A DNA stretch of 38,809 nt, taken from assembly GCA_947564735.1 (NCBI GenBank), contig CANOEC010000035.1:1-38809 (forward strand), given 5' to 3'. Within the stretch, counting starts at the first letter, position 1; each line of letters starts with the position of its first letter. A program made the translations under genes and the position numbers. The DNA comes from an uncultured Lachnospiraceae bacterium. GTDB lineage: Bacteria > Bacillota > Clostridia > Lachnospirales > Lachnospiraceae. The notes under the pieces are model-generated. The model was not told the origin of the DNA. It worked only from the letters and a program-made list of their open reading frames with translations, and did not search any database. Positions 5,100 through 29,064 of the stretch are shown piece after piece.

Positions 5100-6497
5100 A
5101 TGAAAAAACAAGCGTTCAATCCCTATCTGCCGTCTTGGGAATATATCCCGGACGGCGAGCCCTACGTGTTTAACGGAAGGGTTTATGTTTATGGCTCCCA
5201 TGACTTTTATAACGGCTATGTATTCTGCATGGGTGATTATGTCTGCTGGTCCGCACCCGTAGACGATTTGTCCGACTGGCGTTACGAAGGAGTCATCTAT
5301 CCCCGCAACGAAGACCCGTTAAACAAAGATGGCAAAATGTGTCTGTATGCGCCCGATGTCACGGTTGGTCCGGATGGCAGATATTATCTGTATTATGTAC
5401 TGGATCATGTTTCCATCGTATCCGTAGCAGTATGCGACACCCCCGCCGGACGGTATGAATTTTACGGATATGTCCACTATGAGGACGGGACACGTTTAGG
5501 TGAAAAAGAAACAGATGAACCCCAGTTTGACCCCGGCGTACTGACAGAAGGCGACCGCACTTATCTCTACACCGGCTTCTGCGGCAGAGGCGACAAATCA
5601 AGAACCGGCGCCATGGCTACGGTTCTCGGTCCGGATATGCTGACGATCATAGAAGCGCCGGTCTTTGTTGCGCCCGGCTGCGAATACGGTGAAAATACAG
5701 GCTTTGAGGGACACACTTTCTTTGAGGCGCCCTCCATCAGAAAAATTGGAGATACCTATTACTTCATCTACTCCTCCACCCCTATGCACGAACTATGCTA
5801 TGCATACAGCAAGGAACCGACAAAGGGATTTGTCTATGGCGGTGTACTGGTGAGCAACTGTGACCTGCATATTGATACCTATAAACCGGCTGACCAGCCC
5901 ATGGCTTACGGCGCGAATAACCACGGCAGTATCGTGGAAATCGGCAGCGACTGGTACATTTTCTACCACCGGCACACCAACGGGACATGGTACAGCAGAC
6001 AGGGCTGTGCAGAAAAAATTACGGTTCTGCCCGATGGAAGCATTCCACAGGTAGAGATTACTTCCTGCGGTTTAAACGGCGGTCCGTTAGCCGGAAAAGG
6101 AGAGTATCCGGCATATATTGCATGTCATCTGTTTACGGATACCCCCTCCATTTATGTGGGCGGAGACGCATTCCCGAAAATCATGCAGGACGGCAGGGAC
6201 GGCGATGAAGAACCCGGATACATTGCAAACATCAAAGATTCCGCAACGGCAGGCTTCAAATATTTTGACTGCAAGGACATCAAAGAAATCCGTATTACCA
6301 CCAGAGGTTATGGCGATGGCGTCTTTGAAGTAAAAACCGCATGGGACGGGGAGCCGCTTGCACAGATTCAGATAGCGTATTCAAACATCTGGGAAACCTA
6401 CTCGGCGCCCGTTTCCATTCCGGACGGCATACAGTCTATTTATCTGACTTACCGTGGTCCCGGCTGCATCAGTCTTTTGTCCTTTGAACTGGTCTGA
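5100..6497 (+). CDS. GH43 family glycosidase (arabinofuranosidase/xylosidase type)
   Basis: A 465-residue protein without signal peptide, hence cytoplasmic. The five-bladed propeller of GH43 is recognisable. The probable catalytic base is Asp18 (IPDGEPYVFNGRVYVYGSHD), the pKa modulator Asp86 (LYAPDVT) and the general acid Glu209 (FFEAPSIRK); NNHGS near residue 275 supplies the conserved metal/water-binding His. Residues from about 340 form a C-terminal beta-sandwich of CBM6 type. The GGAGG site precedes the ATG. It is first in a two-gene unit with GH31 (18-nt gap). Activity is probably removal of alpha-L-Araf or beta-D-Xyl from imported heteroxylan oligosaccharides; which of the two cannot be told from sequence alone. 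Confidence 0.85.
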   Translation: MKKQAFNPYLPSWEYIPDGEPYVFNGRVYVYGSHDFYNGYVFCMGDYVCWSAPVDDLSDWRYEGVIYPRNEDPLNKDGKMCLYAPDVTVGPDGRYYLYYVLDHVSIVSVAVCDTPAGRYEFYGYVHYEDGTRLGEKETDEPQFDPGVLTEGDRTYLYTGFCGRGDKSRTGAMATVLGPDMLTIIEAPVFVAPGCEYGENTGFEGHTFFEAPSIRKIGDTYYFIYSSTPMHELCYAYSKEPTKGFVYGGVLVSNCDLHIDTYKPADQPMAYGANNHGSIVEIGSDWYIFYHRHTNGTWYSRQGCAEKITVLPDGSIPQVEITSCGLNGGPLAGKGEYPAYIACHLFTDTPSIYVGGDAFPKIMQDGRDGDEEPGYIANIKDSATAGFKYFDCKDIKEIRITTRGYGDGVFEVKTAWDGEPLAQIQIAYSNIWETYSAPVSIPDGIQSIYLTYRGPGCISLLSFELV

Positions 6498-6515
6498 TCT
6501 AAGGAAGGAGAACCT

Positions 6516-8870
6516 ATGCTACAGGCAGAACTCAGAAAAAAAAGAACGATTACCCGCGCATACCGGCAGGAACATATTCTGTATCTGGAATCAGAAGCCG
6601 GACTTATGCGCATTATCCCTCAGGATACCCGGATTTTCCGGGTATCTTTTACAAAAGATACTACATTTTCCGAAACGCAGGGAGAAGCGCTGGCAGACTT
6701 GTCCGGCTCCTGCCAGTGGACATGGCAGGAGGACGACACTGAAATCCGGATTTCTACCGACTCTTTGCATGCCGTAATAAACAGAGTGTCCGGCTCTATC
6801 CGTTTTCTTAGAGAAGACGGCTCTCTGCTCCTTGCGGAACGGGATTATGAGAGCAAAAACGTGGAAGAATTTGACGTTTATCAAACGCTTATAAACGAAA
6901 ACACCGAAATCGAGAAAGTCCAGACACCCGACGGGGTAAAACAGCGCATCCGGCAGGCGGACCGGGTGTGGGCGGGAAAACTTTGTCATACCAGACTGTA
7001 TCTTACCTTTGAAGAAAACGAGCGGCTTTACGGATTAGGACAGGCGGAGGAGGGCGTCTGGAATCTGCGCCATACAACCCAGTATCTCCATCCTGCCAAT
7101 CTGAAAATACCGCTGCCAGTGCTTTTATCTGAAAAAAACTGGGGCATCATGCTTTCCACCCAGAGTACGGCAGTGTTTAACGATACACCATACGGCTCTT
7201 ATCTGCATACGGAAGCAGATTCCTATCTGGACTATTACTTTATAACAGCAGAAACGCCCGGCGAAGTGACCGCTTCAATCCGTCGGCTGACCGGACGGGC
7301 AGCCCTGCTTCCCAAATGGGCATTTGGCTATATGCAGTCCAAGGAACGCTATGAAGATGCAGAGGACCTGCTGACAACGGCAAAGCAGTTCCGCAAACGC
7401 AGACTTGGACTGGATACCCTGATTCTGGACTGGATGAGCTGGCAGGACGGTCTATGGGGACAAAAAACCTTTGACCCCGCCCGGTTTCCCAATCCGGATG
7501 ACATGGTATGCAGACTGCATGACATGGATGTTCACTTCATGATTTCCATATGGCCCACGATGGATGAAAAATGTGATAATTACCGGGAATTTAAAGAAAA
7601 AGGGCTGCTCTTTTCAACCGGCGGAATCTACAACGCATTTGTGCCCGAAGGGCGCCGTCTCTATTGGGAGCAGGTGCAAAGAGGACTGTTTGCACACGGC
7701 GTAGACGCATGGTGGTGTGATTCCAGCGAACCGATAACGCCGGAATGGAGCCGGGAGATGAAACCGGAAGCGGGAGAAATGTACCGTGATTATGTGGCGG
7801 CTGCCGCCGACTGTATGCCGCCGGACAAATCTGCAGTTTATGGTCTATATCACGCCCGGACCCTCTATGAAGGACAAAGGTCATGCACGGTAGAAAAAAG
7901 AGTCCTAAACCTGACACGCAGCGGCTGGCTTGGCAGCCAGAAATACGGCACAATTCTCTGGTCGGGCGATATCTCTGCAAGCTGGGACACACTGCGCAGA
8001 CAGATTGTTGCTGGACTGCAATTCTGCATCTGCGGTCTTCCCTACTGGACCCTTGACATCGGTGCATTCTTTGTAAAACGGGGCGTTTCTTGGTTCTGGG
8101 ACGGAGACTATGACCTTGGGTTGGAAGATGACGGCTATCGGGAGCTGTATGTCCGCTGGTTCCAGTACGGCGCTTTTCTGCCCGTTTTCCGCAGCCACGG
8201 AACGGATTGTCCGAGAGAGCCTTGGCAGTTCGGTTCTGACGGCGACCCTTTCTATGAGGCAATCTGCGCTGCAATCCGATTAAGATACCGTCTGCTGCCC
8301 TATATTTATTCTACCGCCGGTGCCGTATGGCGGGAAAATGCAACGATGATGCAGCCTCTGTTTTTTGAATTTCCAAAGGATACACATGCTGCCAATATCA
8401 GCGATGAATTTATGTTTGGTCCCTCTCTTTTGGTCTGTCCGGTGACAGAATCAATGCAGCATCCGCAGACAGACATCATGGAAAAAACCAAAACCGTGTA
8501 CTTACCTGCCGGAAGCAGATGGTACGATTTTAAAAGCGGACACAGATACGAAGGCGGACAAACCATTCAGGCATCTGCTGGAATCGACAGTATTCCCGTG
8601 TACGTCCGGGAGGGCGCTATCCTGCCGACAACGAATCCGGTCGAAAGCGCCAATGCCATGGATGGACAGGATATCTGCCTCATGGTTTATGCCGGAAAAA
8701 GTTCTTCCTACACATTCTATGAGGATGCCGGAGACGGTTACGGCTATGAAAAAGGTGAATACTGTCTGACCCACATCACATACGACGACACCACCGGAAC
8801 AGTACACTGGGATACCGAAGGAGATACCCGTTTCCGGAAAGGCAGCCTGACAGTAGAAATCATCAAATAA
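6516..8870 (+). CDS. GH31 glycosidase, probable alpha-xylosidase
   Basis: A 784-residue GH31 enzyme of normal length and without a signal peptide. An N-terminal beta-sandwich is followed by the (beta/alpha)8 barrel from about residue 265 and C-terminal beta domains. The nucleophile is Asp402 (WWCDSSEP) and the acid/base is Asp485 (WSGDISASW), both in full family context. The segment YNAFVPEGRRLYWEQV is like that of characterised bacterial alpha-xylosidases, but GH31 also holds alpha-glucosidases, so the substrate is inferred from context. AAGGAAGGAG fixes the start at 6516. The gene follows GH43 in the same unit and ends at a bidirectional terminator. Expected role: removal of terminal alpha-D-xylose. 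Confidence 0.85.
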   Translation: MLQAELRKKRTITRAYRQEHILYLESEAGLMRIIPQDTRIFRVSFTKDTTFSETQGEALADLSGSCQWTWQEDDTEIRISTDSLHAVINRVSGSIRFLREDGSLLLAERDYESKNVEEFDVYQTLINENTEIEKVQTPDGVKQRIRQADRVWAGKLCHTRLYLTFEENERLYGLGQAEEGVWNLRHTTQYLHPANLKIPLPVLLSEKNWGIMLSTQSTAVFNDTPYGSYLHTEADSYLDYYFITAETPGEVTASIRRLTGRAALLPKWAFGYMQSKERYEDAEDLLTTAKQFRKRRLGLDTLILDWMSWQDGLWGQKTFDPARFPNPDDMVCRLHDMDVHFMISIWPTMDEKCDNYREFKEKGLLFSTGGIYNAFVPEGRRLYWEQVQRGLFAHGVDAWWCDSSEPITPEWSREMKPEAGEMYRDYVAAAADCMPPDKSAVYGLYHARTLYEGQRSCTVEKRVLNLTRSGWLGSQKYGTILWSGDISASWDTLRRQIVAGLQFCICGLPYWTLDIGAFFVKRGVSWFWDGDYDLGLEDDGYRELYVRWFQYGAFLPVFRSHGTDCPREPWQFGSDGDPFYEAICAAIRLRYRLLPYIYSTAGAVWRENATMMQPLFFEFPKDTHAANISDEFMFGPSLLVCPVTESMQHPQTDIMEKTKTVYLPAGSRWYDFKSGHRYEGGQTIQASAGIDSIPVYVREGAILPTTNPVESANAMDGQDICLMVYAGKSSSYTFYEDAGDGYGYEKGEYCLTHITYDDTTGTVHWDTEGDTRFRKGSLTVEIIK

Positions 8871-8907: not shown

Positions 8908-11136
8908 CTATTCCCATGTCAGTCTAGTCGCTCCAGCCGGAAGCGTCAGTTCCCTCTTCTCCCCGTTCGCTTCCACCGTCACATTCTGCTCTGTACCAGA
9001 TTTCAAAGAAGCACACAGAACTTTCCCGTTCTCCCACTCCATATCGAGTGTCATGCCGCCCCGCAGCAGAATGCCTTTTGCGCTGCCATCCGCAAACTGA
9101 ACCGGCAGCGCCGGCAGCAGATGGATATACCCGTTGCGGCACTGCACCAGCATTTCAATCATCGCTGCCGCTGCTCCCAGATTGCCGTCAATCTGAAAAA
9201 CAAATCCGTCGCCCATAGGATGATTGTCCATCAGATTTGGAAAAGTGCTGTCCGCCAGCAATGCACGGAAATTCTCATAAGCCTTTTCGCCATCCAGAAA
9301 TTTCGCCCACAGACCGATAATCCAAGCCCTTGACCATCCCGTATGTCCGCCGCCAAAAGAAAGTCTTCTCTCTAACGTAATCTTCGCCGCGCGCATCAGC
9401 TCCGGTGTCTCCTGCCACGTAATACTGCTGCCGGGATATACGCCGTACAAATGTGAAATATGGCGGTGTCCCGGTTCAGCCTCGTCATAATCCTCCAGCC
9501 ACTCCCGCAGTTGTCCGTATCTGCCGACACCCAATTGCGGAAGCCGTTCCAAGATACTGTTTGCTCTGTCTATCAGCCCGGAATCCTTATCCAGAATCTT
9601 ACAGGCGTTTATATATCCATGCAGCAGCTCCTGTATAATTTCAATATCCATGGATGCGCCTTCACATAGACATCCCCTCGTACCATCGCTCTGTATATAA
9701 GTATTCTCCGGCGAAACCGAAGGCGAAGTCACAAGTCTGCCCTGTTCATCTTCTATCAGAAAATCTTCAAAAAAATCCACATTCGCCTGCAGGATATCAA
9801 AATATTCTTCCAGAAAATCCTTATCCTGCGTATACAGATAATGCTCATAAATATGTGTCGCGAGCCACGCTTCCCCCATCGGCCAGATACTGGCGGAAAT
9901 ACAGATATCCTGTGGCGCCGTATCCCCGTACAAATCAACATTATGGTGCGCCACAGACCCCCGGCAGCCATACATCTGCTCCGCAGTCCGCTTTCCGTTT
10001 TCCATCACTCTTCTTAAATGTGCAAAATAAGGAAGATGGCATTCTGAGAGATTCCCGCTTTCCGCAGCCCAGTAATTCATTTCCGTATTGATATTGATTG
10101 TAAATTTACTGTCCCACGGCGGCGTAAGCCTGTGATTCCAAATCCCCTGCAGATTCGCAGGAAGGCAGCCGCCCCGGCTTGAGGAAAGCAGAAGATACCG
10201 TCCATACTGAAAATACAGTGCAAACAGACCTGCGTCCTCCTTCCCCTCTTTGACTGCCCTAAGACGCATGTCGGTGGATACTTCCTCTTTTTCCGTATCC
10301 TTTCCAAGCGTTAGATTCAGACGCCCGAAAAGCCTCTGATATTCCGCAACATGACCGGTAAGGCAGGCTTCCCATCCTTTTTCTTCTGCCTGCGTAAGCT
10401 GTCTTGTGCACACCTCTTCATATGCCTTTTGCCGAAAACTGGTAACAATATTCAAGTACAGCGTCGCACTCTTTGCCCCTTCCACAGACAAATACTCACC
10501 GATGGAGCGCAGTGAACCGCCTTCCTGTCTGATGACAAGCGAAACCAGAAAAGAGATCCCCTCGCCACCATCCACTTTAAACCACAGACTATGTCCCTGT
10601 GCGCAGACCTCGTCGAGTCTGTTGTGACATCGTTCCAGTCTGCATACAAACTTAAGGTCCTCCGGTCCCTGTGCTTCCATATGCAAAATAAGCGCTTGAT
10701 CCGGATACGAAGCAATCATTTTCCGCTCATATTTTGTCGCCCCCATCTCATAAGAAACACTTACCACCCCGTTATCAAGGTCTAGCTCCCGGCGGTAATG
10801 GCGTACCTCCCCCGTCTCCTTAAAAGACAAGTATAACTCTCCCGCCGTCTCATAGGAACGCTGAGAGTTAGGCGTTCCGCACAGCGCCAGCTTCGCCAGT
10901 TCTTCCGCCTCAGGAATCCTTCCCTCTCTAATCAGACTTCGTATCTTCGGTAAGTTTTCTTTCGCATCGGGATTAATCCTGTGGAGGGGTTTTCCGCTCC
11001 ACACGCTGTCCTCATTCAGCCAGATCGTTTCCTGCGTTACGGCGCCGCACATCATTGCCCCTAGTCTGCCGTTCCCTATCGGCAGCGCCTCTTCCCACTT
11101 TTCAGCCGGCTTGTCATACCATAGCTTCATGTTCAT
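8908..11136 (-). CDS. GH95 alpha-L-fucosidase/alpha-L-galactosidase
   Basis: About 742 residues, no signal peptide. The N-terminus (KLWYDKPAEKWEEALPIGNG, then LNEDSVWSGKP) is diagnostic for GH95. The (alpha/alpha)6 barrel segments AHHNVDLYGDTAP, WPMGEAWLATHIYEHY, SPSVSPEN (family general acid Glu) and MDNHPMGDGFVFQIDGNLG are all present. The frame is open to 11169, but AGGAGG stands just before two nearby ATGs (11136 and 11130), so I start at 11136. It is last in the GH51-ABC operon, 40 nt after the MATE gene. GH95 enzymes remove alpha-L-fucose or alpha-L-galactose. In a feruloylated heteroxylan locus alpha-L-galactose is the likelier target, as shown for a Bacteroides ovatus GH95 acting on corn xylan; this is inference. 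Confidence 0.88.
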   Translation of the reverse strand: MNMKLWYDKPAEKWEEALPIGNGRLGAMMCGAVTQETIWLNEDSVWSGKPLHRINPDAKENLPKIRSLIREGRIPEAEELAKLALCGTPNSQRSYETAGELYLSFKETGEVRHYRRELDLDNGVVSVSYEMGATKYERKMIASYPDQALILHMEAQGPEDLKFVCRLERCHNRLDEVCAQGHSLWFKVDGGEGISFLVSLVIRQEGGSLRSIGEYLSVEGAKSATLYLNIVTSFRQKAYEEVCTRQLTQAEEKGWEACLTGHVAEYQRLFGRLNLTLGKDTEKEEVSTDMRLRAVKEGKEDAGLFALYFQYGRYLLLSSSRGGCLPANLQGIWNHRLTPPWDSKFTININTEMNYWAAESGNLSECHLPYFAHLRRVMENGKRTAEQMYGCRGSVAHHNVDLYGDTAPQDICISASIWPMGEAWLATHIYEHYLYTQDKDFLEEYFDILQANVDFFEDFLIEDEQGRLVTSPSVSPENTYIQSDGTRGCLCEGASMDIEIIQELLHGYINACKILDKDSGLIDRANSILERLPQLGVGRYGQLREWLEDYDEAEPGHRHISHLYGVYPGSSITWQETPELMRAAKITLERRLSFGGGHTGWSRAWIIGLWAKFLDGEKAYENFRALLADSTFPNLMDNHPMGDGFVFQIDGNLGAAAAMIEMLVQCRNGYIHLLPALPVQFADGSAKGILLRGGMTLDMEWENGKVLCASLKSGTEQNVTVEANGEKRELTLPAGATRLTWE

Positions 11137-11176
11137 ATCTCCTCCTGTTCTGCACAAACCTCCATTCATTGCATCG

Positions 11177-12535
11177 TTATACCCGAATCTTCTTAATCCA
11201 CTTTCCGCCCCTTAACCGGAAAATACACCAGAACGTCTTGGCAATCTGGTCCGATTTCAGACATACATATATCCAGAACGCCGACCAGTGGAACACGAAT
11301 CCCGCCAGAAGACCTAACGGTATCGATAATACCCACAGAAAAATATTGTCGGCAAGCATCAGCATTTTCGTATCGCCGCCACCGCGCAATACCCCCTTTG
11401 TCATAATACTGTTTGTAGCCTGAAAAACAATAATCAGGCTGATTGCTTCCATCAACTGCTCCGCTACCTTTGCCGTTTCTTCGGATACATTATAATATGA
11501 GATAATCGGACCGCTGACCGCCATGATAAACAGGGCGGAAAGGAGTCCCAGCCCGATGCCCAGTCGCAGAAAACTGCCTGCCTGCTTCTGTGCCTTTTCC
11601 CTGTCTCCTTCGCCCAATGTCTGTCCTGTTACGATAGCGCCTGCCTGACACACGCCCTGTATCAGCACGGTGCTCATCTGCTGGGTGACGCTGGTGATGG
11701 CATTGGCGGCGACAAAGGTCACTCCCAGTCTGCCGATTACCATAGCTACGGTATTCCCACCGACAGCCAGTATCCCGTCACTGATTAGAACCGGAATGCT
11801 GATTCGCACATACTCTCCAATCAAATCGCCGGTTTTCATCAGAAGATCCCGGCAGCGGAATCCAATCCTTTTATCAAAAAACAGCAGATATCCGCAGATG
11901 ACCCCTGCTTCAAAGAGCCTTGCGATCAACGTCCCCAGTGCAGCCCCCGCAACTTCCATACGGGGCATCCCAAATTTTCCAAAGATAAATGCATAATTTG
12001 CGCACAAATTTACAACAAACGCTCCGATGGAAACAAAGAGCGGCATCTGAACCTGCCCAACACTCCGCAATCCTATCGTACACACCAAAGACAGCCCCAA
12101 GAAAAAACAGGTCACAATGGAATACCGGAAATAAACAATCCCCAGCCTTATAATCTCCTGCTCCGTCGTGTACATGCGCATGATACTTCCCGGACAAAGC
12201 AGCATTCCCAGCGCAAAGATAAGCGCCAGTGTGACCGTAATCCGTATCATAATGCATACTGTTTTGCGCAGCGCCAGTGCAGCGCGCTCAGGTTCCTCCT
12301 TTTTCATTCCCCAGTATCTGGCAATCAGCACGGAAGCGCCCATGCCGATTCCCATACACAATATATGATAAATATTGATAAACTGGTTTGCCAGCGATAC
12401 CGCAGACAACTGCGTTTCTCCCAGATTTCCCACCATAATCGTGTCTAACATATTTACACCGATTGTAATCAGACTCTGGAGCGCTATGGGCGTTGCAAGA
12501 AAAACCACCCGTTTATAAAATTTTCCATCAACCAC
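11177..12535 (-). CDS. MATE family efflux transporter
   Basis: About 452 residues with twelve predicted membrane segments in two homologous halves. The first (residues 10-30) leads into MLDTIMVGNLGETQLSAVSLANQ, the typical MATE N-lobe sequence, and the second half repeats it with RGGGDTKMLMLADNIF near the end. The likely start is a GTG at 12535, seven bases after AGGAGG, overlapping the stop of the upstream beta-helix gene by 8 nt. MATE proteins export cations, drugs or other small compounds using H+ or Na+. Its place inside a glycan operon suggests export of a by-product of degradation such as a hydroxycinnamate, but nothing in the sequence shows the substrate. Confidence 0.85.
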   Translation of the reverse strand: MVDGKFYKRVVFLATPIALQSLITIGVNMLDTIMVGNLGETQLSAVSLANQFINIYHILCMGIGMGASVLIARYWGMKKEEPERAALALRKTVCIMIRITVTLALIFALGMLLCPGSIMRMYTTEQEIIRLGIVYFRYSIVTCFFLGLSLVCTIGLRSVGQVQMPLFVSIGAFVVNLCANYAFIFGKFGMPRMEVAGAALGTLIARLFEAGVICGYLLFFDKRIGFRCRDLLMKTGDLIGEYVRISIPVLISDGILAVGGNTVAMVIGRLGVTFVAANAITSVTQQMSTVLIQGVCQAGAIVTGQTLGEGDREKAQKQAGSFLRLGIGLGLLSALFIMAVSGPIISYYNVSEETAKVAEQLMEAISLIIVFQATNSIMTKGVLRGGGDTKMLMLADNIFLWVLSIPLGLLAGFVFHWSAFWIYVCLKSDQIAKTFWCIFRLRGGKWIKKIRV

Positions 12536-14486: not shown

Positions 14487-14525
14487 TTTCCCTCCGTTCC
14501 GGGGCTCCACTCTTTCTGCCCCTAT

Positions 14526-14562
14526 TAAAAAAACAGGAACCGGCAAAAGCCGATCCCTGTCC
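14526..14562 (-). terminator. Intra-operon terminator after the binding-protein gene
   Basis: Minus-strand ACAGG and CGGC arms pair with GCCG and CCTGT around a TTTT loop, followed by a run of seven T. It lies between the solute-binding protein stop (14597) and the next start (14486). It probably gives partial termination, keeping the binding protein in excess over the downstream enzymes. Confidence 0.75.
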
Positions 14563-14596
14563 TTCACTGGCTGTATTTTCGCCATTCTAATTTCTC

Positions 14597-20846: not shown

Positions 20847-20872
20847 GTGCTTTTCTCCTTAATTCTTTTAGT

Positions 20873-20893
20873 AAAACGTTAAACTTGTTTAAC
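20873..20893 (-). promoter_or_regulatory. LacI-type operator, proximal, upstream of GH51
   Basis: AAAACGTTAAAC (20873-20884) is identical to the copies at 5040 and 21005. It overlaps a 16-bp palindrome GTTAAACTTGTTTAAC (20878-20893). It is 26 nt from the start codon, so it may act as a roadblock or as the second anchor of a DNA loop. Confidence 0.55.
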
Positions 20894-20996
20894 TTGATAT
20901 TACCCTTTCTCATTTATGCTGTCAATATAATTCCGACTTTCATTATACATTTTGTTAAATATTTATAATTCTTATTTATATTTTTTATGCGTTTTA

Positions 20997-21170: not shown

Positions 21171-23495
21171 CTATCGGAAGACTTTTCTCAGAAAGGCATT
21201 TACGCAATGTCTCCAGAATGTCCAGTCATGATAACCGTATCCTTCAAAGAACTCGACAGGTACGCCCGCCTCCGATACCTTCTTCACATTTTCTACCGTG
21301 CCCGGATAATGATCTTCTTCTGTGCCGCACGCCACGAAAAGCATCCGGAATCTTTCCCGGAACGCTTCCGGGTCAAGCAGTATATCGCTATAGTCCACTT
21401 CTTCATCCTTTATCACAAGTCCGCTGGAAAACAGCCCTGCCCACGCAAACAGTTCCGGTCTCTCAAACACGGCACGCTGCGTCTGCATTCCGCCCATGGA
21501 TAATCCTGCCATGGCACGATGCTCCCTGTCCGCAATGGTACGAAACGTCTTGTCAATATAGGGAACGCAGCTTCCCGGCAGCTCCTGTGGAAATGCGCTC
21601 AGCGCATAGTGATAATTCCCATCTTCCGGGAACGCATAACCGGTAGTCATTACAATGATCATCTCTTCCATCGATCCTTCTGCAATCAAGTTATCCGCGA
21701 TATTGGCAAGCTTACCCTGCCAGAGCCAGCCTACTTCGTTTTCCCCGCCGCCGTGCTGCAGATAGAGTACGGGATATTTCTTATCCGGATTCTCCTCATA
21801 AGAAGCCGGCGTATATACATAGCACAACTTTGTACGTCCTGTAATCTTTGACGGATAATATTGATAGTGCACGGTTCCATGGGGCACCTGCCGAATCCGG
21901 TATACTTCAAAATCCTCCTCCGGCATTTCCAGATAGTTTACCGCCCTAAAGCCGCCGTATCCTACCGGCGCATTGTTGTCAACCACCTCCGTACCGTTCA
22001 CAAAGCAACCGTAATAGTGGAATCCCTTCTCGATGCCGGATACGTCAACACTCCACCAGCCTTCTTCATCCGTCTGATGCAACGCATAACGCCCCATTCC
22101 CCAGATATCTACTTCCACACGCTTTGCGCCCTCCGCGCGAATCCAGAATCTGGCGCTTCCGGCGGAGGCATCAAGAATCTCCGCCCCGGAATGCTCCTCT
22201 TTGTACCTTCCATTCGGTCTTCCTTTTTCATCCACCGCATAAATGAGTCCTTTGTGAATCGGATCCGCCATCAGCATATGTTCTGCATAAGTCTGTGCAT
22301 CCAACTGTTTTATATCGGCATGCGGTTCCTCATAGACACGTTTTGCTTCCTGTTTTGCCTGGTCACCTGTCGCTTTAAAAAGCAGCATGACAAAATCCCG
22401 CAGGCTTTCCCGCCACACATGCCACTCATGATACCCCTCGTAGCAGCGCTGTCCGCCTGCCACGCCAAGCGCCGCAAACTGATCCGTATAAACCTTCTGC
22501 GCCTCGTCAAGCCCCTTCTCACCTTGTCCAGCCGTCATCAGCACCGTCTGCATAGGATATTTTTCATGGGCGGCAAGTATTTTTTCCGTCTCCCCATCTC
22601 TGATCCCGGAAAATACGCCAAGATGGGCAAACAGCTCCTGATAACGGGACACAATCTGCGTCGCCTGTGCCGACCCTAATGAAAGTCCTGCCATCGCGCG
22701 GTTTTTCCTGTCACGGCACACCGGGAAGCGGCTCTCCACATAGGGAATAACATTTTCCACCAGCTCTTTACCGAAATCACCCGGGAAAAATACAGGGTCT
22801 TCTCCTTCCACAAAGGCATAACCGCAGCACATCACTACAATCATCTCTTCTGCTTTTCCCTCAGCTAACAGATTATCCATAATAAAATTAAGTTTTCCGT
22901 TCCAGAGCCATCCGCTCTCACTTTCTCCCACACCATGCAGAATGTAAAGCACGGGATACCTTTTGCCTTCTACTTTTCCGAAACTGGGTGGCAGATACAC
23001 ATAACATTTTTTTCTGTGACCATTCTGCCCGGACCGGTAACTATGTATCTGCACGTCTCCGTGAGGCACGTCCTTTAAAAACCAGAAATTGCTTCCCTCC
23101 TTTGGCAGTTCAAAAAAATTGTTTACGCCAAAGCACCCGTAAGCACAAGGAGCATAGGGATTTACGGACTGTACACCGTCCACAAACCATCGATGGTAAT
23201 GAAATCCCGGAAGTATCCCTGATACTGTTTTCTGAAAATATCCTTTTTCGTCTTTTTCCAAGGCAATTTTATCTGTCCCCAGACTGCCGCCGTAACCGGA
23301 CACTTCCACGGTCTCCGCCTCTGGTGCGTACATGGTGAAGGTAACGCTCTTATCCTCTTCCACCTTCACACCGCAGGGTTCCTCCACATACCGGATGGAT
23401 ACCTTCCCTTCTTCTCTGTTGAATTCCGCCTTCTTACGAATCGGATCGAAAAAAAGCGGATACATTGTGACTGCCTGATTTTGTTTTTTTGCCAT
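21171..23495 (-). CDS. Tandem feruloyl-esterase-like protein (two CBM48-esterase modules)
   Basis: A 774-residue cytoplasmic protein; GGAGG before the ATG at 23495 fixes the start rather than 23519. Two homologous modules each consist of a CBM48-like sandwich and an esterase D (Fae/XynZ type) alpha/beta-hydrolase. Module 1: sandwich about 40-130, esterase 145-375, nucleophile Ser272 (GLSLGSAQ), His356 (GYHEWHVW). Module 2: sandwich about 435-525, esterase 540-774, Ser666 (GLSMGGMQ), His756 (GYHDWTFW). The catalytic acid site reads GTEED (728) in module 2 but GQGEKG in module 1, so module 1 may use Glu326 or be weakened. Such domains release ferulate from 5-O-feruloyl arabinose or acetyl groups. 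It has its own promoter with a LacI-type operator and its own terminator. Confidence 0.82.
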   Translation of the reverse strand: MAKKQNQAVTMYPLFFDPIRKKAEFNREEGKVSIRYVEEPCGVKVEEDKSVTFTMYAPEAETVEVSGYGGSLGTDKIALEKDEKGYFQKTVSGILPGFHYHRWFVDGVQSVNPYAPCAYGCFGVNNFFELPKEGSNFWFLKDVPHGDVQIHSYRSGQNGHRKKCYVYLPPSFGKVEGKRYPVLYILHGVGESESGWLWNGKLNFIMDNLLAEGKAEEMIVVMCCGYAFVEGEDPVFFPGDFGKELVENVIPYVESRFPVCRDRKNRAMAGLSLGSAQATQIVSRYQELFAHLGVFSGIRDGETEKILAAHEKYPMQTVLMTAGQGEKGLDEAQKVYTDQFAALGVAGGQRCYEGYHEWHVWRESLRDFVMLLFKATGDQAKQEAKRVYEEPHADIKQLDAQTYAEHMLMADPIHKGLIYAVDEKGRPNGRYKEEHSGAEILDASAGSARFWIRAEGAKRVEVDIWGMGRYALHQTDEEGWWSVDVSGIEKGFHYYGCFVNGTEVVDNNAPVGYGGFRAVNYLEMPEEDFEVYRIRQVPHGTVHYQYYPSKITGRTKLCYVYTPASYEENPDKKYPVLYLQHGGGENEVGWLWQGKLANIADNLIAEGSMEEMIIVMTTGYAFPEDGNYHYALSAFPQELPGSCVPYIDKTFRTIADREHRAMAGLSMGGMQTQRAVFERPELFAWAGLFSSGLVIKDEEVDYSDILLDPEAFRERFRMLFVACGTEEDHYPGTVENVKKVSEAGVPVEFFEGYGYHDWTFWRHCVNAFLRKVFR

Positions 23496-23556
23496 ACTTT
23501 CCTCCATTTCTGCCGGCATGGACGCCGACCCTTCTCTTAATTTGTCTCATTTCCCC

Positions 23557-23575
23557 ATCATAAGTGTAACGTTTT
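23557..23575 (-). promoter_or_regulatory. LacI-type operator and -10 of the tandem esterase gene
   Basis: On the minus strand AAAACGTTACAC (23575-23564) is one base off the shared operator and lies directly before TATGAT (23562-23557), a good -10, about 60 nt before the start codon. No clear -35 is seen. Confidence 0.55.
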
Positions 23576-23605
23576 ACTACTCATTTTTTTGCTCATATTG
23601 TATCA

Positions 23606-26212
23606 TTAGAGTCCCAGCGCCGCCGCAACGGTCTGCGCATACAGTCTTGCCAGAAAATCATTGGGATGATTCAGCCAGTTTCCCGTAAGGTCGATATACC
23701 GTTTCCGTCTGTTTATCTCGCAATGCACTTCCTGTACATCCGCCAGACCCACTCCTTCCCGACAAAGCCCACGGAGCGCTTCCCCATATTCCTCCTGATG
23801 TGCATGGAAATACATCGGAGGTGTCGCGCACAAAGGATTCGGCAATGTGGTGGAAACAAGCAGTATCTCCGTCTGCGGACTGTCCTTCTTTACCGCATCA
23901 ATAAGCCGTTTCGTCTTGTCCCGGTACTCCTCCATACCGCAGCGATCGTTCATACCGAAGCCTAAAATGACCAGATCAGGCTCATATCTTCCCACTCTGT
24001 TATAAGCATTTTGAATTGCCCATTCCGTATCCATGCCGCTTAAGGACGTGTTGTGGAAGCTCATCGGATTGCTCCACTTCTCGCCTAACCTGTGAAGCAA
24101 AATCTTCGACCAGACAGGCTGACCGGGCTGTTGTCCATATTTCCCGCTGCAGTCGAATCCACAGCAGATACTGTCGCCAAACAGCACAATCTTAATGGGC
24201 TCTCCCTTATCCAGTTTCTCCTGCAGCCGCGGCAGTTGTTCCATCTGGCTCCTTTGCACTGCGCCAAACTGCTTATCCCTTGTCGTATAGGTTACGGCAA
24301 TCTGCCATTTTGTCACAAGCTCCGGATGTCCGATAGGCTCCAGATTGATATATTTCCCATTGGTCGCCGCAACCGGTCCGAAATCCGGTGCAAAGCCGCT
24401 CTTTTCAAGCGCCTGCTTCGCCGCCTCCTCAGTATCGTAGAAAAAGGTCTCCCAGCCCGTATGCGGAATACGGCTGTTCTGTGTCAGCACCAGATTCCCG
24501 TCTTCTACCCGGTAATCCCGGTCTTCTTCATAGACGGTTTCCCCATCGTAGCTTTCCACCTGAAGAATCTGCTTTGGCTGGAATAGAAACGGCGCCTTCA
24601 CCATGCCGTCTTCCTCTATCATCGCAAAGGTCTCCCGAAACACCCTATCGCTCTCCCAAAGCGGCTGTATCCATTCTTCACACCAGCGTTTGCCTCCCAG
24701 CCGTTCCTTCACTTTTTCTATCAGAAATGCCTTAAAGGGCGTCTCCTGCTTAAAAGAAACGACCGGTCCGTCGGAGGTGAATATCATCTCGCACGGTTCC
24801 TCCTTCGTATAGGGTTTCCATTCCGGCATAGGGCTTCCGTCCGCATCCAGCCCATTAGGATTTCCCGTCTTGATAAAATTCGCCCAGTAGTTACACATTT
24901 TCCTTGCCAGATCATAATGCCGCCCCACAAAGGGTCTCCAGCACTTCGCCAAGGTCTCAAAGAAAAACCACAAATCGCAGGAATGGAACGTCCCCGGATT
25001 ATCCTCCCCGGGAATATCCGGCGTAAAGCGGTAATAATAATAGTTCTGCCCATTTTCTCTTTTGCTGTAAGAAAAAAGCGCCTTCGCCGAACATTCTATC
25101 CCGTTCACCCTTGCATATTTTCCCTCTCCAAACATCTCCTTTGTTTCCGGGAATGCAAGGAAGGTTTCCGCCTTCTCCCCAAATAGCTTCTTCGCCTTAT
25201 CTTCCAGCTCCTGCTCGCTATCTGCCGTAAGGAAACCGGGAAATTCATCCGCCGTGTTGCCTGCCATTACGGAAATAGCGGCGCACTTTCCCTCCAAGAA
25301 CATCTGTAGCGGGTCTCCCACACAGAAACGTCCGTCTACCACGGTAAACATCCTTGGGAACATTTGTGCATATTCCGCATATTTATCGCGGATATAGAAA
25401 GCATCCAGCGCTCTTGCCTCTTCCAAATCCGACACGCCAAGGAAATCAAAGAAATTCTGTCCGCTTTCTTCCGCCTCACACAAAGACTGCGGAATCCCAA
25501 TCCCGCCCTCCTCATAGGGATTTCTAATCATCGCGCTCATAATGACCGCCTTTTGGAACAATCCTGCATTCTGTGGAGATGCCATCTGACTTAAGACACT
25601 TCCGCCGCCTGCAGACTGTCCTGCAATCGTAATATTATCCGGGTCTCCCCCAAAAGCAGCTATGTTCCGGATAACCCAGCGGATTCCTGCCTGCTGGTCA
25701 AGACTTCCGAAATTAGCGGGTGCATCCGGCTGCTCCAAGGTAATTTCCGGGTGCGCCAGAAATCCGAATACATTGATTCTGTAATTCACGGTAACCACCA
25801 CGACTCCCCTGCGCGCCAGCCGCTCTCCGTCAAACTCCATTTCCGCAGGATTCCCCCACTGCAGCGCACCGCCGTAAAACCAGACCAATACCGGCAGCTT
25901 TTCTTCTTCGCTCTTAGCCCCTGTCCAGACATTCAGATAGAGACAATCCTCATCCATCGGAATCTGTGGATCCACATTCCATTCCCGGTTATATATGGTG
26001 TCGCCCAGTCCCGGTACATCCTGCACGGAAATAGGTGCAAACCGTGAAGCGTCCCTTATTCCTTCCCAATTTTCGCAAGGCTGTGGCGCGCGCCATCTGT
26101 TCTTCCCCACCGGCGGCGCCGCAAAGGGAATCCCCTTAAACGCCGTGATGCGCGGATCCGCAGCCTCAATCCCCCTCAGCCATCCATTTTCTACTTTTGC
26201 CTGTCTTATCAT
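23606..26212 (-). CDS. Type B carboxylesterase fused to SGNH esterase
   Basis: An 868-residue fusion without signal peptide. Residues 1-510 are a type B carboxylesterase, with the nucleophile Ser200 in AGQSAGG, the acid Glu323 (NTADEFPG) and His410 (TFHSCDLW); the oxyanion loop reads FYGGALQWG instead of the usual HGGG. A beta-rich linker (about 535-640) leads to an SGNH hydrolase, with Ser681 in LFGDSICCG, LGFGMND, and a final TGNWLNHPND motif. Both halves look catalytically complete, so two ester types may be removed by one protein, for example acetyl and hydroxycinnamoyl groups. GGGGAGG precedes the ATG. It lies 61 nt after the LacI gene and is probably co-transcribed with it. Substrates are inferred from context. 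Confidence 0.82.
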   Translation of the reverse strand: MIRQAKVENGWLRGIEAADPRITAFKGIPFAAPPVGKNRWRAPQPCENWEGIRDASRFAPISVQDVPGLGDTIYNREWNVDPQIPMDEDCLYLNVWTGAKSEEEKLPVLVWFYGGALQWGNPAEMEFDGERLARRGVVVVTVNYRINVFGFLAHPEITLEQPDAPANFGSLDQQAGIRWVIRNIAAFGGDPDNITIAGQSAGGGSVLSQMASPQNAGLFQKAVIMSAMIRNPYEEGGIGIPQSLCEAEESGQNFFDFLGVSDLEEARALDAFYIRDKYAEYAQMFPRMFTVVDGRFCVGDPLQMFLEGKCAAISVMAGNTADEFPGFLTADSEQELEDKAKKLFGEKAETFLAFPETKEMFGEGKYARVNGIECSAKALFSYSKRENGQNYYYYRFTPDIPGEDNPGTFHSCDLWFFFETLAKCWRPFVGRHYDLARKMCNYWANFIKTGNPNGLDADGSPMPEWKPYTKEEPCEMIFTSDGPVVSFKQETPFKAFLIEKVKERLGGKRWCEEWIQPLWESDRVFRETFAMIEEDGMVKAPFLFQPKQILQVESYDGETVYEEDRDYRVEDGNLVLTQNSRIPHTGWETFFYDTEEAAKQALEKSGFAPDFGPVAATNGKYINLEPIGHPELVTKWQIAVTYTTRDKQFGAVQRSQMEQLPRLQEKLDKGEPIKIVLFGDSICCGFDCSGKYGQQPGQPVWSKILLHRLGEKWSNPMSFHNTSLSGMDTEWAIQNAYNRVGRYEPDLVILGFGMNDRCGMEEYRDKTKRLIDAVKKDSPQTEILLVSTTLPNPLCATPPMYFHAHQEEYGEALRGLCREGVGLADVQEVHCEINRRKRYIDLTGNWLNHPNDFLARLYAQTVAAALGL

Positions 26213-26273
26213 GTGAACCTCCCCATTCTTATCTATTTTTTCAAACTTTCATCACTTACTTTCTCTTGCTCCT

Positions 26274-27329
26274 TCATGCTATGGGCTCAATACATTTCAC
26301 GGATTCCCTCTCAATCAATGTGCAGGGAATCTTCTTTTCTACAACATGCTTTGTATGCAGCGTCTGTCCGCCTTCCAGACTGTCGAGCAAAAGGCTTGCC
26401 GCCTCAATGCCGATTCTTCTAAGGCTTAACTCCATCGTCGTAAGCCTTGGGTAAAAATACTCGGAAATATCCCGGTTATCAAACCCTGCTATGGAAATCT
26501 CTTCTCCTATCCGCACCCCCTTTTCACGAAAATAATCGTACACGCCGCCCGTCATGTTATCATTCATGCAGAAAATGGCGGTAAGTCCCTCCTCCGCAAG
26601 AAAACGCGCCTGTTCATAACCAGATGGTCTCTCCCAGTCCCCGTAGCGTACCCACGCCGGATTATAAAAAATTTTTTCTTCAAATAACGCCGTCTGAAAG
26701 CCCATCAGACGCTTCTGCGTATGAATGTTATCCTTCTTGCCTCCAATCACGCCAATTCGGCGGTGTCCCTTGGAAATCAGATATTTTGTCATGTCATAAC
26801 CGCCTTGTTCGTCGTCTATCACGATTGAAGGGACTTTTTCCGATTCCGTATAGGCATACACCATAACGCTTGGGATACTGTTATGCTCCGCCAGATATGG
26901 TATAATCCTCCCATGACCAGCCACATAAAGAAGCCCGTCCACCTTAAGGGAAATCATCTCCTGCATAACGGGATCCATAACAGAACGGTATGCCGCATCA
27001 TTATGATACCATGTATCGTTCCATCTCATATAAAGACGCAGATTCTGTATCATGGTACGGTATCCCCTCTCCTCACATACTTCCATGATTCCTTCCAGAA
27101 CCTCCGGCGTTGTAAACTGGTCGATTTCCTCCGCTATAATACCGATACAGTTGGTCTTCTTCCTCCTGAGTCCCTGTGCAAGATAATCCGGCTGATACCC
27201 TCTAAGCTGCACCACCTCCAATACTTTCTGCCTTGTCTCCTCACTTACCTTCGGACGCCCGTTTAGAATGTTGGACACCGTAGTCGCCGACACATTGCAC
27301 TCTCTGGCAATTTCTTTCAACGTGACCAT
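26274..27329 (-). CDS. LacI family transcriptional regulator
   Basis: A 351-residue protein. The N-terminal helix-turn-helix (TLKEIARECNVSATTVSNILNG) and hinge (LRRKKTNCIGIIAEEI) are canonical. A periplasmic-binding-protein-like effector domain follows (FCMNDNMTGGVYDYFREKG, ISIAGFDNRDISEYFYPRLTT). GGAGGAGAGG precedes the ATG. It is the only DNA-binding regulator in the glycan locus, between the second GH43 and the esterase fusion. It should bind the CG-centred sites at 5040, 20873, 21005, 23564 and 29097 and release them when an oligosaccharide or sugar binds. No such site is evident before its own gene, although it may be read from the GH43 promoter. Confidence 0.92.
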   Translation of the reverse strand: MVTLKEIARECNVSATTVSNILNGRPKVSEETRQKVLEVVQLRGYQPDYLAQGLRRKKTNCIGIIAEEIDQFTTPEVLEGIMEVCEERGYRTMIQNLRLYMRWNDTWYHNDAAYRSVMDPVMQEMISLKVDGLLYVAGHGRIIPYLAEHNSIPSVMVYAYTESEKVPSIVIDDEQGGYDMTKYLISKGHRRIGVIGGKKDNIHTQKRLMGFQTALFEEKIFYNPAWVRYGDWERPSGYEQARFLAEEGLTAIFCMNDNMTGGVYDYFREKGVRIGEEISIAGFDNRDISEYFYPRLTTMELSLRRIGIEAASLLLDSLEGGQTLHTKHVVEKKIPCTLIERESVKCIEPIA

Positions 27330-27426
27330 AGTCCTCTCCTCCTATCTACATTTTCAATATCACCCGTCTTGCCGGCTTATCCTGCCTGTGTCTTGACGGT
27401 TCATCGTCAGGGGCGTCCGGCTTAAC

Positions 27427-29064
27427 TTAATGACATTCTTTGACAATCACATTCATTTTGACATTACTGAATTCTTCATTCACATCTTCCTCAAAAGACA
27501 TTCCGAAAACCGGGGAACCATCCTCTCTGAAATGGACTCGTCTGATGCCGTCGCAGCGAAGCGTGCTGTCCGGCGAAGTCTCTGCATGATAAGAAATCAT
27601 CAGCTCCCCGTCCTCATCATAAAAGAAAGCATTGTGTCCGGGACCGTATTCTCCCTCTACAGAATAAAACTGAAGCACGGGCCAGAGACTCTTCTTCCAA
27701 GACGCCAAGTCAAGCAAATCACCTTTCCCGTCCGCACTGAGCAGACCAACCGCATACGTATAGCTGTTTGCCGCACCTCCGGAATAGGTCACATAAACCT
27801 TTCCGTCCCTGTAAAATACATAGGGTCCCTCATTGTTGATGGTTCCGGCGACATTTTCCCAGCTATACAGAGGTCTCGAAAGCAGTACCGGCTCACTGGT
27901 AAGCCGCCACGGCTCTGTCTCGTTTATCGTTGCGATGTAAAGCATGGAACCCGTATCCGTCTTTGTTCCTATGTCCCTTCTATAGGACCAGACAACATAA
28001 GATGCACGTTCAGCTTTCAGATAGGTCATGTCCAGCGTAATACCATTTCCATCTGCAAGGAAGCTTCCATCCTCTCTGCGGACGCGCACCGGATTCTCCC
28101 AGTCAGCTTCTTTGATGATGCTTCCATTCTGTTTTAACTTCATCATATGGCATTGAGGGCCCCACTGCTCATTGCTGACTGCAAATAAAATATAAAGCTG
28201 TCCGCCAATGACATGAAATTCCGGCGCCCAGAATGTCTGTACAAATCCCCGCTCTTTATCCAATGGCAGAATCAGATGTTCTTCGATACCCTCGGCAAAC
28301 AAACCGGCTGGCGTATCCGCCTCACGGACATAGATGCCGATATCATCCCTGTTGTCACTTGTGCCAATAAAATACCATTTACCTTCCCATCGGAACAATA
28401 CGGGATCGCCGTATCCTCTTGCCAGCGGAAAAAGATATTTCTTCTGGTATATCCTGCCTTCTACCATATAACTTCCCGGTCTGCTAAAATCAATGCTTTC
28501 CATCTCCCATTGTACACTCTTTTTCGCTTGAGAGCCATCGGAATAAACCGCCGTTGCACATACCTGTTCCAATTCTTCCCTGCTGCAGACCTGCACGCTG
28601 TCGGGAACCTGTGTTTCCACATGCCGCATGGGTGTCCAGTACTTTGCTGCCCGTAAAACCAGTTCCCTGTCGATTTCTATGCAGTCTGGCGCTTTCTCCG
28701 GCATAGCAGCGTCGCCCTCCGCAAATCCCTTCTCTTCAAAGCTGATAAAGTCCTCAGTATACCAGCAAAGCTTTTTGCCTTCTGCCAGTTCATCAACCGC
28801 CCCATTTTCCTCTGTCTGCACCGCCATAATATAAAACCCCTTTTGTTTTGCTGCAAAAACAAAAGGCTTTGTCACCCCCTTGGGAAGCAGGGTATCATTC
28901 GGAAGAATTTCTGCTTTCGCAAAAAGAATGCCGTAGTTTTTATAAAACGGATAAAACGCTTCTCCATCAAGACTGTACGCAATGTGGATACTGTTTGCCA
29001 GCCCATCCGGATAGTTCTTTTCAATCGCTCTTGTGTATACCTTCAAATATGCCTTTTCCCCCAT
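27427..29064 (-). CDS. Multidomain GH43 glycosidase with inserted Ig-like domain
   Basis: A 545-residue protein. GGAGGAGAGG just before the ATG at 29064 fixes the start, although the frame is open to 29112. The C-terminal part is a GH43 propeller: catalytic base Asp220 (ARGYGDPVLF), modulator position Glu282 (FWAPEFHVI, where many members have Asp) and general acid Glu412 (NNEGPYVFY). Residues 1-125 resemble part of another propeller (HIAYSLDGEAFYPF, YGILFAKAEI). Residues 155-205 look like an Ig-like insert (VYSDGSQAKKSVQWEMESID). No signal peptide. Its promoter carries a LacI-type operator. Expected to act on arabinosyl or xylosyl decorations; the exact linkage is unknown. Confidence 0.82.
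   Translation of the reverse strand: MGEKAYLKVYTRAIEKNYPDGLANSIHIAYSLDGEAFYPFYKNYGILFAKAEILPNDTLLPKGVTKPFVFAAKQKGFYIMAVQTEENGAVDELAEGKKLCWYTEDFISFEEKGFAEGDAAMPEKAPDCIEIDRELVLRAAKYWTPMRHVETQVPDSVQVCSREELEQVCATAVYSDGSQAKKSVQWEMESIDFSRPGSYMVEGRIYQKKYLFPLARGYGDPVLFRWEGKWYFIGTSDNRDDIGIYVREADTPAGLFAEGIEEHLILPLDKERGFVQTFWAPEFHVIGGQLYILFAVSNEQWGPQCHMMKLKQNGSIIKEADWENPVRVRREDGSFLADGNGITLDMTYLKAERASYVVWSYRRDIGTKTDTGSMLYIATINETEPWRLTSEPVLLSRPLYSWENVAGTINNEGPYVFYRDGKVYVTYSGGAANSYTYAVGLLSADGKGDLLDLASWKKSLWPVLQFYSVEGEYGPGHNAFFYDEDGELMISYHAETSPDSTLRCDGIRRVHFREDGSPVFGMSFEEDVNEEFSNVKMNVIVKECH

Follow-up and report, generated by a model that had tools for sequence, protein, structure and literature searches.

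We have analysed a run of thirteen genes at positions 5100-29064 of contig CANOEC010000035.1, assembled from an uncultured Lachnospiraceae bacterium (GCA_947564735.1). With modest confidence we read this locus as a LacI-controlled system for the uptake and intracellular breakdown of feruloylated heteroxylan side-chain oligosaccharides, including those that carry the maize-type cap. The window, by which we mean the whole stretch of 38,809 nucleotides, is the entire contig; the genome comprises 4.52 Mb on 102 contigs. The maize side chain is alpha-D-Xyl-(1-3)-alpha-L-Gal-(1-2)-beta-D-Xyl-(1-2)-5-O-feruloyl-L-Araf, and the side chain beta-D-Xyl-(1-2)-[5-O-feruloyl]-L-Araf is common in grasses. 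As given in a preliminary description of this DNA, the maize structure consists of a Xyl-Araf-ferulate unit and a Xyl-L-Gal cap, which would match two parts of the locus: a core that recurs in other genomes (an ATP-binding cassette (ABC) importer, a GH120-like protein and often a carboxylesterase) and a GH31-GH95 module. The maize reading is the best, if unproven, of those considered below.

The genes of the locus were called by Pfam matches and by their best relatives of solved structure. Two genes (GH43a and GH31) lie on the + strand and eleven on the - strand, the latter in the transcription order GH43b, LacI, the carboxylesterase fusion COest, the tandem esterase CE1x2, GH51, permease 1, permease 2, solute-binding protein, GH120-like, MATE and GH95. 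The preliminary description had listed GH31, GH95, a GH120-like protein, GH51, two GH43 proteins, two esterase fusions, an importer and a LacI regulator; all of these proved real and correctly named, and a MATE transporter had been missed. It had also described the locus as dedicated to side chains and not to the backbone. This stands for the locus, as neither GH10 nor GH11 is present in the window, but not for the genome, which holds elsewhere one GH10 backbone xylanase gene (C8) with an apparent signal sequence, a marginal match to the GH67 N-domain (25 bits against a cut-off of 24.3) and an ordinary GH120-type gene on another contig; GH11 had no match in the whole genome. Genes elsewhere probably enable the organism to attack the xylan backbone, the locus supplying the side-chain part.

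The GH120-like protein and its recurring neighbours

The GH120-like beta-helix enzyme (12528..14585, - strand; likely true start at M34, 14486) is a putative beta-xylosidase with the XylC-type fold over its whole length. In a model built from 40 sequences (mean predicted local distance difference test score, pLDDT, 81) XylC was the best match, nearly full length; this model superseded an earlier AlphaFold model from 6 sequences, which was too poor (pLDDT 60). XylC (3vst, GH120), which we take to come from Thermoanaerobacterium, has the fold and the positions of the catalytic Asp and Glu in common with the window protein; the two are 25% identical across 513 aligned positions. The catalytic residues of XylC, D382 and E405, correspond in the alignment to D414 and E440 of the window protein, and this pair is invariant in 81 of 81 sequences (the window protein and 80 relatives). 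The motif beside the nucleophile differs between the GH120-like protein and XylC (LWLDWEAQGTR against LWLDCGNENNR as given), and N417 in this motif is likewise invariant in 81 of 81. By its modelled fold and its catalytic pair the protein belongs to GH120. Close full-length relatives, 46-68% identical, occur in 6 of 294 other genomes of the order, another 41 genomes give GH120-type matches that cover only part of the length, mostly at about 32% identity, and an ordinary GH120 lies in the same genome as the window. Because of this distribution, the sequences point to a separate subfamily, able to coexist with ordinary GH120.

A contig scan with the GH120-like protein returned 287 relatives, the best 80 of which were kept as loci (prefix L) with flanks of at most 10 kb, 44 of them with both flanks full. 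The neighbour counts are undercounts owing to these flanks, the GH95 genes of Eisenbergiella porci, G321 and G328 lying beyond 10 kb, and the P values given below ignore relatedness. Beside the GH120-like gene, homologues of the solute-binding protein were found in 55 of the 80 loci, permease 1 in 46, COest in 37, LacI in 18 and GH43a in 15, followed by GH39 (13), GH43b (10), GH51 (7), GH31 (6), CE1x2 (4), MATE (3) and GH95 (2). In 51 of 72 loci an importer gene is close to GH120, either the solute-binding protein at most 1.7 kb upstream or permease 1 at most 0.4 kb downstream. Sequence in which COest could lie downstream of GH120 was available in 68 loci, 26 of which have it at a distance of at most 0.4 kb; in the window COest stands elsewhere in the run. 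Because importer and carboxylesterase recur in this way (55 and 37 of 80), they and the GH120-like protein look like a core to which GH31 and GH95 are optional additions. We read the core as serving a substrate with beta-xylose, an ester and arabinose, and the GH31-GH95 module, which also occurs apart, as joined to it here. Loci that have the module and loci that lack it use an importer of one kind, so the simplest role for the module would be to act on decorations of the core substrate.

The association of GH31 with the core exceeds chance. Taking one GH31 copy per 4.5 Mb genome and 2.5 GH95 copies (56 pieces in 22 genomes), GH31 would be expected near the core in 0.27 of the 80 loci and was found in 6 (P 4.5e-7). 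Across the 294 genomes, GH31, present in 27, co-occurs with the GH120-like gene in 4 of the 6 genomes that have the latter (P 0.0008), and GH31 and GH95 co-occur with each other (11 shared of 27 and 27, P 2e-6). Among 18 genomes, three (E. porci, G316 and an Anaerocolumna) carry all three genes on a single contig in a span of at most 45 kb. Because these 18 genomes were picked partly for their rich loci, linkage counts from them were kept out of the tests and the 80-locus count was used instead.

These distributions bear on an alternative in which the locus is a general importer system for acetylated and feruloylated oligosaccharides of grass arabinoxylan, GH31 and GH95 acting on minor or unrelated linkages with no maize specialisation. 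The low counts of GH31 and GH95 near the core (6 and 2 of 80, both undercounts) speak for it, as does the chance-level frequency of GH95 there, and in 20 of the 80 records the title mentions a gut sample of a ruminant or horse, animals whose diet is usually grass and not maize bran. The enrichment of GH31 beside the core, the joint presence of GH31, GH95 and the GH120-like gene in E. porci, G316 and Anaerocolumna and the tie of GH95 to GH31 across the 294 genomes all argue against it, and we regard this alternative as rather unlikely.

Counterpart loci were found in other genomes. One contig of E. porci carries GH95 (61% identical), GH31 (65%), GH39, GH43b, the first half of COest, the GH120-like gene (65-68%), importer, LacI and GH43a, together with a GH51 of another type and a separate GDSL gene corresponding to the second half of COest. 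In G316, GH31, LacI, GH43a, importer, GH120-like, GH39 and GH95 lie within about 21 kb. Anaerocolumna sp. AGMB13025 has GH31, GH95 and the GH120-like gene within 44 kb, and its GH95, which adjoins GH43a, GH2, GH36 and a second ABC importer, likely belongs to another operon. The closest gene content was found in Lachnospiraceae MBin.029 (L049, G314), with GH31, GH43a, LacI, importer, GH120-like, COest, GH51, MATE and CE1x2, and with GH95 on another contig. Two genomes of another genus (G031 and G080) have the GH95-GH31 pair with an ABC importer and no close GH120-like gene.

Further features of these loci were recorded. On the E. porci contig (L151) the GH95 frame is apparently split (2977-5063) and a 244-residue GH31-like open frame lies at 15628-16362; decay or an assembly error is possible. 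The GH39 genes of the 13 loci (L039 11066-12625, L046 12501-14009, L155 16022-17548 and others), a family missing from the window, may encode an alternative beta-xylosidase for the same side chain. Related loci also hold PF00144 beta-lactamase-fold proteins, possibly esterases (L151 12561-13733, L153 9055-10212).

Enzymes and transporters of the locus

GH31 (6516..8870, + strand; called by Pfam and by 5jou at 7.8e-129) is a putative alpha-xylosidase, and here the preliminary description is borne out as far as sequence kinship goes: its best solved relatives are four alpha-xylosidases (434, 432, 390 and 298 bits), the top non-xylosidase scoring 212 bits, and the catalytic Asp pair (D402 and D485) is kept. 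The window protein lacks a stretch of some 160 residues, present at the same place in the three solved relatives that match best, the alignment to BoGH31A ending at about residue 211 and restarting at 369 with few query residues (between 223 and 232). The PA14 insert of characterised xyloglucan alpha-xylosidases, which is not a strict definition of these enzymes, accordingly has no counterpart in the GH31 alignments. In the Xanthomonas GH31 this stretch, as the available part of the paper describes it, includes the PA14 domain with a key tryptophan (PMC8245568).

GH95 (8908..11169, - strand; PF22124 6.8e-167) is a putative alpha-L-galactosidase or alpha-L-fucosidase. Its catalytic domain retains the conserved Asn pair N359 and N361 and E488, and also T357. 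The Bacteroides ovatus alpha-L-galactosidase 4ufc is the best solved relative (7.7e-163, 546.9 bits), with BH0842 (538.4 bits) and a Xanthomonas L-fucosidase (531.9 bits) close behind. T357 aligns with T370 of BACOVA_03438, and a strict fucosidase carries that threonine too; the -1 subsite threonine was for this reason dropped as a marker of specificity, such galactosidase-type threonines being reported also in L-fucose-specific GH95 enzymes (PMC8245568, as far as available). A tree of 16 sequences joined the window GH95 to those of E. porci and two genomes of another genus (100/100). Reading specificity from the tree through 4ufc, 7kmq and 2rdy was likewise given up, the two specificities clustering together.

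The pair GH95 and GH31 also raises a xyloglucan side-chain locus, in which GH95 would be an alpha-L-fucosidase and GH31 an alpha-xylosidase acting on fucosylated, arabinosylated or acetylated xyloglucan oligosaccharides. The best solved relatives of GH31 include xyloglucan enzymes, and the fucosidase XacAfc95 of a xyloglucan locus has the same threonine as the window GH95. The Xanthomonas xyloglucan locus (XyGUL) resembles the window in combining GH31, GH95 and an esterase (Vieira et al. 2021, PMC8245568), but has a GH74 xyloglucanase and a GH35 beta-galactosidase, and the accessible part of that report names no GH120, GH51, GH43 or CE1. The beta-galactosidase and beta-glucosidase families needed for xyloglucan (GH35, GH2, GH42, GH3) gave no Pfam match in our locus, and the window GH31 is without the stretch that holds PA14 and the key tryptophan in the Xanthomonas enzyme. 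We know of no role in xyloglucan for a feruloyl-esterase-type CE1 or a GH120-like enzyme. In another genome the GH95-GH31 pair does lie near GH2. A GH2 beside these GH95 genes could be a xyloglucan beta-galactosidase, which makes xyloglucan possible for those loci; the GH36 neighbours suit heteroxylan because heteroxylan can bear alpha-D-galactose (PMC4491172, in the part available). For the window locus itself we judge xyloglucan improbable.

Three putative arabinose-releasing enzymes accompany the maize-type set. GH43a (5100..6497, + strand; PF04616 5.9e-19), a putative arabinofuranosidase/xylosidase, has as its best solved relative 9no3 TerARA (named 'arabinofuranosidase/xylosidase', 1.3e-138). 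GH51 (18378..20846, - strand; PF22848 and PF06964), a putative alpha-L-arabinofuranosidase, is closest to MgGH51 6zps (7.3e-76). GH43b (27427..29064, - strand; PF04616 3.2e-25), whose open reading frame opens at 29112 with a likely start at 29064, is a putative arabinofuranosidase; the solved structures nearest to it, 3k1u, 3akf and 5m8b, carry the names beta-xylosidase or alpha-L-arabinofuranosidase. These enzymes could also serve an arabinan or rhamnogalacturonan side-chain system, in which GH43b, GH43a and GH51 take arabinose, and the esterases ferulate, from pectic arabinan. In its favour 3akf, among the best relatives of GH43b, is named an alpha-L-arabinofuranosidase, and GH127 genes (the beta-L-arabinofuranosidase family) stand beside two related loci (L153 1756-3858, L160 9661-11523). 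One Pfam-checked locus of group g19 has GH39 and two GH43 proteins with the beta-xylosidase C-terminal domain PF17851, which argues the other way, and we know of no use on arabinan for a beta-xylosidase such as the GH120-like protein or an alpha-xylosidase such as GH31. We consider this explanation very improbable.

Two esterase fusions complete the enzyme set. CE1x2 (21171..23519, - strand) is a tandem CE1 protein and putative feruloyl/acetyl esterase, with PF00756 in two stretches, a CBM48 and two esterase-type GxSxG sites (S280 and S674); its best solved relatives are 7b5v, 6ne9 and 6rzo, and among the CBM48-CE1 esterases to which it is akin several are named ferulic acid esterase. We take 7b5v to be the C-terminal part of DmCE1B of Dysgonomonas mossii. 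That protein likewise combines two CE1 domains with a CBM48, and its N-terminal domain is a feruloyl esterase, though it is predicted to be secreted whereas CE1x2 shows no signal; the CE1 family also includes acetyl esterases (PMC8040265, as far as available). COest (23606..26212, - strand) is a fusion of a type-B carboxylesterase (PF00135 4.1e-91) and a GDSL esterase (PF13472 4.4e-18), the halves that are separate genes in E. porci. Tandem CE1 is rare, with matches at E <= 1e-100 in 5 of 396 other genomes of the family. Among the strong matches listed for the family, neither of 2 same-genus genomes appears, and in 18 same-genus genomes the matches were weak and partial or none. A donor outside the genus may have supplied the locus.

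The importer consists of a solute-binding lipoprotein (14597..16393; 9pmy 1.3e-7; lipobox LAGC), sugar permease 2 (16432..17367; PF00528 1.7e-9) and sugar permease 1 (17453..18388; PF00528 5.7e-15), all on the - strand; a SusC/SusD pair, the mark of Bacteroidetes polysaccharide utilisation loci, was not matched in the locus. Hydropathy, the only measure applied, revealed no N-terminal signal in the eight enzymes, the highest 15-residue mean being 1.2 against 2.32 for the solute-binding lipoprotein. Because no enzyme shows such a signal, all eight should be cytoplasmic and their substrate imported, the oligosaccharides being opened inside the cell.

The MATE family transporter (11177..12562, - strand; PF01554 8.9e-50; TIGR00797), a putative exporter, is placed between GH120 and GH95, its frame overlapping that of GH120 by 35 bases. 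Homologues of 60-76% identity occur in three loci (L048, L049 and L050), all of which also have CE1x2; at a threshold of at least 50% these were the only ones among the 80 loci, and L048 and L049 look closely related. Since cytoplasmic feruloyl esterases would free ferulate inside the cell, its export would be a natural role, and the MATE protein may export ferulate. A MATE-ferulate link was not described in the titles and abstract beginnings searched. Ferulate export by a MATE protein in the same gene run is, to our knowledge, a step not known from other xylan systems. The idea of MATE as a fixed partner of tandem CE1 was not upheld by five further CE1x2 genomes, and L115 has CE1x2 (52%) and a GH120-like gene with no MATE within 10 kb.

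The LacI regulator and its operators

The LacI regulator (26274..27329, - strand; PF00356 and PF13377) is a putative repressor of the locus by its association with an operator. A palindrome core, GTNNAWCGWTNNAC, stands ahead of GH51, at the start of the GH51-to-GH95 run, and ahead of CE1x2 and GH43b. The corresponding LacI-type operators are AGTAAAACGTTAAACT (20870..20885, GH51), AGTGTAACGTTTTACT (23563..23578, CE1x2) and TGTTTATCGTTAAACA (29096..29111, GH43b); two further copies, of unsure role, lie inside the genes for the solute-binding protein (14766..14781) and GH31 (7174..7189). With at most one mismatch allowed, a closely similar pattern matched the window 14 times when both strands were counted, where 3.7 matches were expected and the maximum of 100 shuffles was 13. 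The identical 16 bases stand ahead of the importer in G314.

The motif follows the regulator across the 80 loci. It was found in 16 of 18 LacI-positive loci and in 1 of 62 LacI-negative ones, with 30 sites in 377 kb and 1 site in 996 kb respectively; excluding the four loci from which the motif was derived, the counts were 12 of 14 and 1 of 62 (P 3.7e-11). In the sole LacI-negative locus with the motif (L105) the sequence starts just before the importer, and a LacI gene may be cut off.

Sigma-70-like promoters, identified by consensus match only, accompany the operators. Two on the - strand lie just upstream of operators in the window, TTGACA-17-TAATAT (20897..20925; 10/12) ending 11 bases before the operator at 20870 and TTGACA-17-TATGAT (29113..29141; 11/12) ending 1 base before that at 29096; the other three sites, the one ahead of CE1x2 included, have none in range. 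In the whole stretch 17 such promoter sites were found against 12.8 expected. Of 36 operators (5 in the window and 31 in the 80 loci), 18 have a promoter in range, against a mean of 2.5 and a largest value of 8 in 200 random control sets, and in 10 of those 18 the promoter ends 11 bases before the operator. The regulator gene and a matching palindrome at the locus promoters, GH43a-GH31 excepted, are what a local LacI regulon would show. The simplest reading of these patterns is that the repressor would block transcription start at the locus, further targets being possible. The exact pattern AGTNNAACGTTNNACT occurs in two places genome-wide, both inside the locus. A genome-wide LacI regulon derived from it was set aside, as the strict pattern misses the 29096 site and its one-mismatch count is hardly above the control.

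Proposed pathway and known systems

Based on these assignments, oligosaccharides cut loose by other enzymes would be taken in by the lipoprotein-dependent ABC importer. GH31 as an alpha-xylosidase, and then GH95 as an alpha-L-galactosidase, would remove the maize-type cap alpha-D-Xyl-(1-3)-alpha-L-Gal. The core, meaning the importer, the GH120-like beta-xylosidase, the carboxylesterase in about half of the loci and LacI and arabinofuranosidases in some, would handle beta-D-Xyl-(1-2)-[5-O-feruloyl]-L-Araf. CE1 and the carboxylesterase fusions would free ferulate and acetate in the cytoplasm, GH51 and GH43 would free arabinose, and the MATE protein may export the ferulate. More tentatively, and with a good deal of doubt, clostridial gut bacteria, many of them from herbivores, may share a side-chain importer regulon of this kind: a cognate ABC importer, the GH120 subfamily as a beta-1,2-xylosidase on feruloylated Xyl-Araf and a carboxylesterase, with diet-matched cap modules (GH31 and GH95) and with ferulate freed inside and, in the fullest loci, exported by MATE.

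Several observations weigh against the maize-directed pathway. GH95 occurs near the core at chance level (2 loci against 0.68 expected, P 0.15) and does not co-occur with the GH120-like gene in the 294 genomes (1 of 6, P 0.44). Its specificity is ambiguous by kinship, as 4ufc and 7kmq cluster together outside the clostridial GH95 clade, and the relatives of GH43b with arabinofuranosidase names, 3akf for example, we take to be active on arabinan. GH2 and GH36 neighbour the GH95-GH31 pair in G031, the only one checked by Pfam, and GH95 in Anaerocolumna. The 40 kb read from E. porci yielded neither CE1x2 nor MATE, and MATE was not seen beside CE1x2 in four of the five further CE1x2 genomes, the stretch from the fifth being too short. 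In the regulation, no such operator stands upstream of the GH43a-GH31 pair, and the strict operator pattern with one mismatch occurs in 8 places genome-wide against 6 for its reversed control. Finally, XacAfc95, which is specific for L-fucose, has the same threonine as the locus GH95 (PMC8245568, as available in part).

The biochemical logic of the preliminary description, that such enzymes dismantle the maize side chain, is established because work on Herbinix and B. ovatus has shown it, in the portions of both papers available (PMC7176698, PMC4491172). Its extension to this locus holds in part: the enzyme set fits the chain bond by bond and has the Herbinix precedent (PMC7176698, in part), while the chance-level position of GH95 and the GH43a-GH31 pair without an operator do not support it. 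Maize arabinoxylan side chains can carry Ara, Xyl and D- and L-Gal (PMC11610566), and maize bran xylan is among the more recalcitrant xylans, its side chains being a main cause (PMC7176698, PMC4491172; all as far as accessible). In the clostridial Herbinix sp. LL1355, a GH31 alpha-xylosidase, GH95 alpha-L-galactosidases, a GH120 beta-xylosidase and GH43 arabinofuranosidases were predicted, and shown to act together, on maize xylan oligosaccharides (Beri et al. 2020, PMC7176698). Its locus tags, as given in the available part, are far apart (1211, 687, 697, 1710, 996 and 1120), suggesting scattered genes, whereas the window genes form one importer-linked cluster with esterases, MATE and LacI. 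PUL-XylL of B. ovatus resembles the window in that a single locus unites GH31, GH95 and GH43 enzymes directed at complex maize xylan (Rogowski et al. 2015, PMC4491172). It differs, according to the accessible part of that report, in its surface or periplasmic enzymes, SusC/D-like uptake, GH98 or GH30 backbone enzymes and hybrid two-component regulator, in contrast to the ABC import, apparently cytoplasmic enzymes and LacI of the window.

Both the kinds of enzyme and their combined action on maize xylan were thus known before. New here are the separate GH120 subfamily with its recurring importer and carboxylesterase, the LacI operator and the enzymes without a signal peptide; no description of importer-linked clustering with a recurring core was met in the papers searched. 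No clostridial importer-linked cluster with these enzymes and operator appeared among the papers listed (titles and abstract beginnings, subscription papers and bioRxiv lying largely outside), and the proven gene cluster for maize bran xylan that we met belongs to Bacteroides. If the reading is true, its clostridial, importer-based counterpart would capture side-chain oligosaccharides whole, ferulate included, instead of sharing them. The GH120 subfamily and the LacI operator would offer direct handles on the substrate of such loci in many clostridial genomes (the best 80 of 287 relatives).

The flanks of the locus were also inspected. On the left lies a GlgA-like gene (2069-4894, - strand; 941 residues), the second half of which is glycogen-synthase-like and the first half (about 480 residues) outside the best-scoring matches. 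The right flank holds, in order, an AAA-ATPase/PD-DExK gene, a DUF1093 gene, a 556-residue protein (31860-33530, - strand; GTG start; no Pfam family at 0.001), an FtsX/MacB-type ABC transporter and a two-component system. The first of these, an AAA-ATPase-like and PDDEXK_9 protein (29664-31187, - strand), stands at the very edge of the locus and belongs to a family frequently repeated in gut genomes. A terminator-like hairpin on the - strand (29620..29646; 11 pairs, 7 of them G-C; consensus match only) lies between the locus and this flank.

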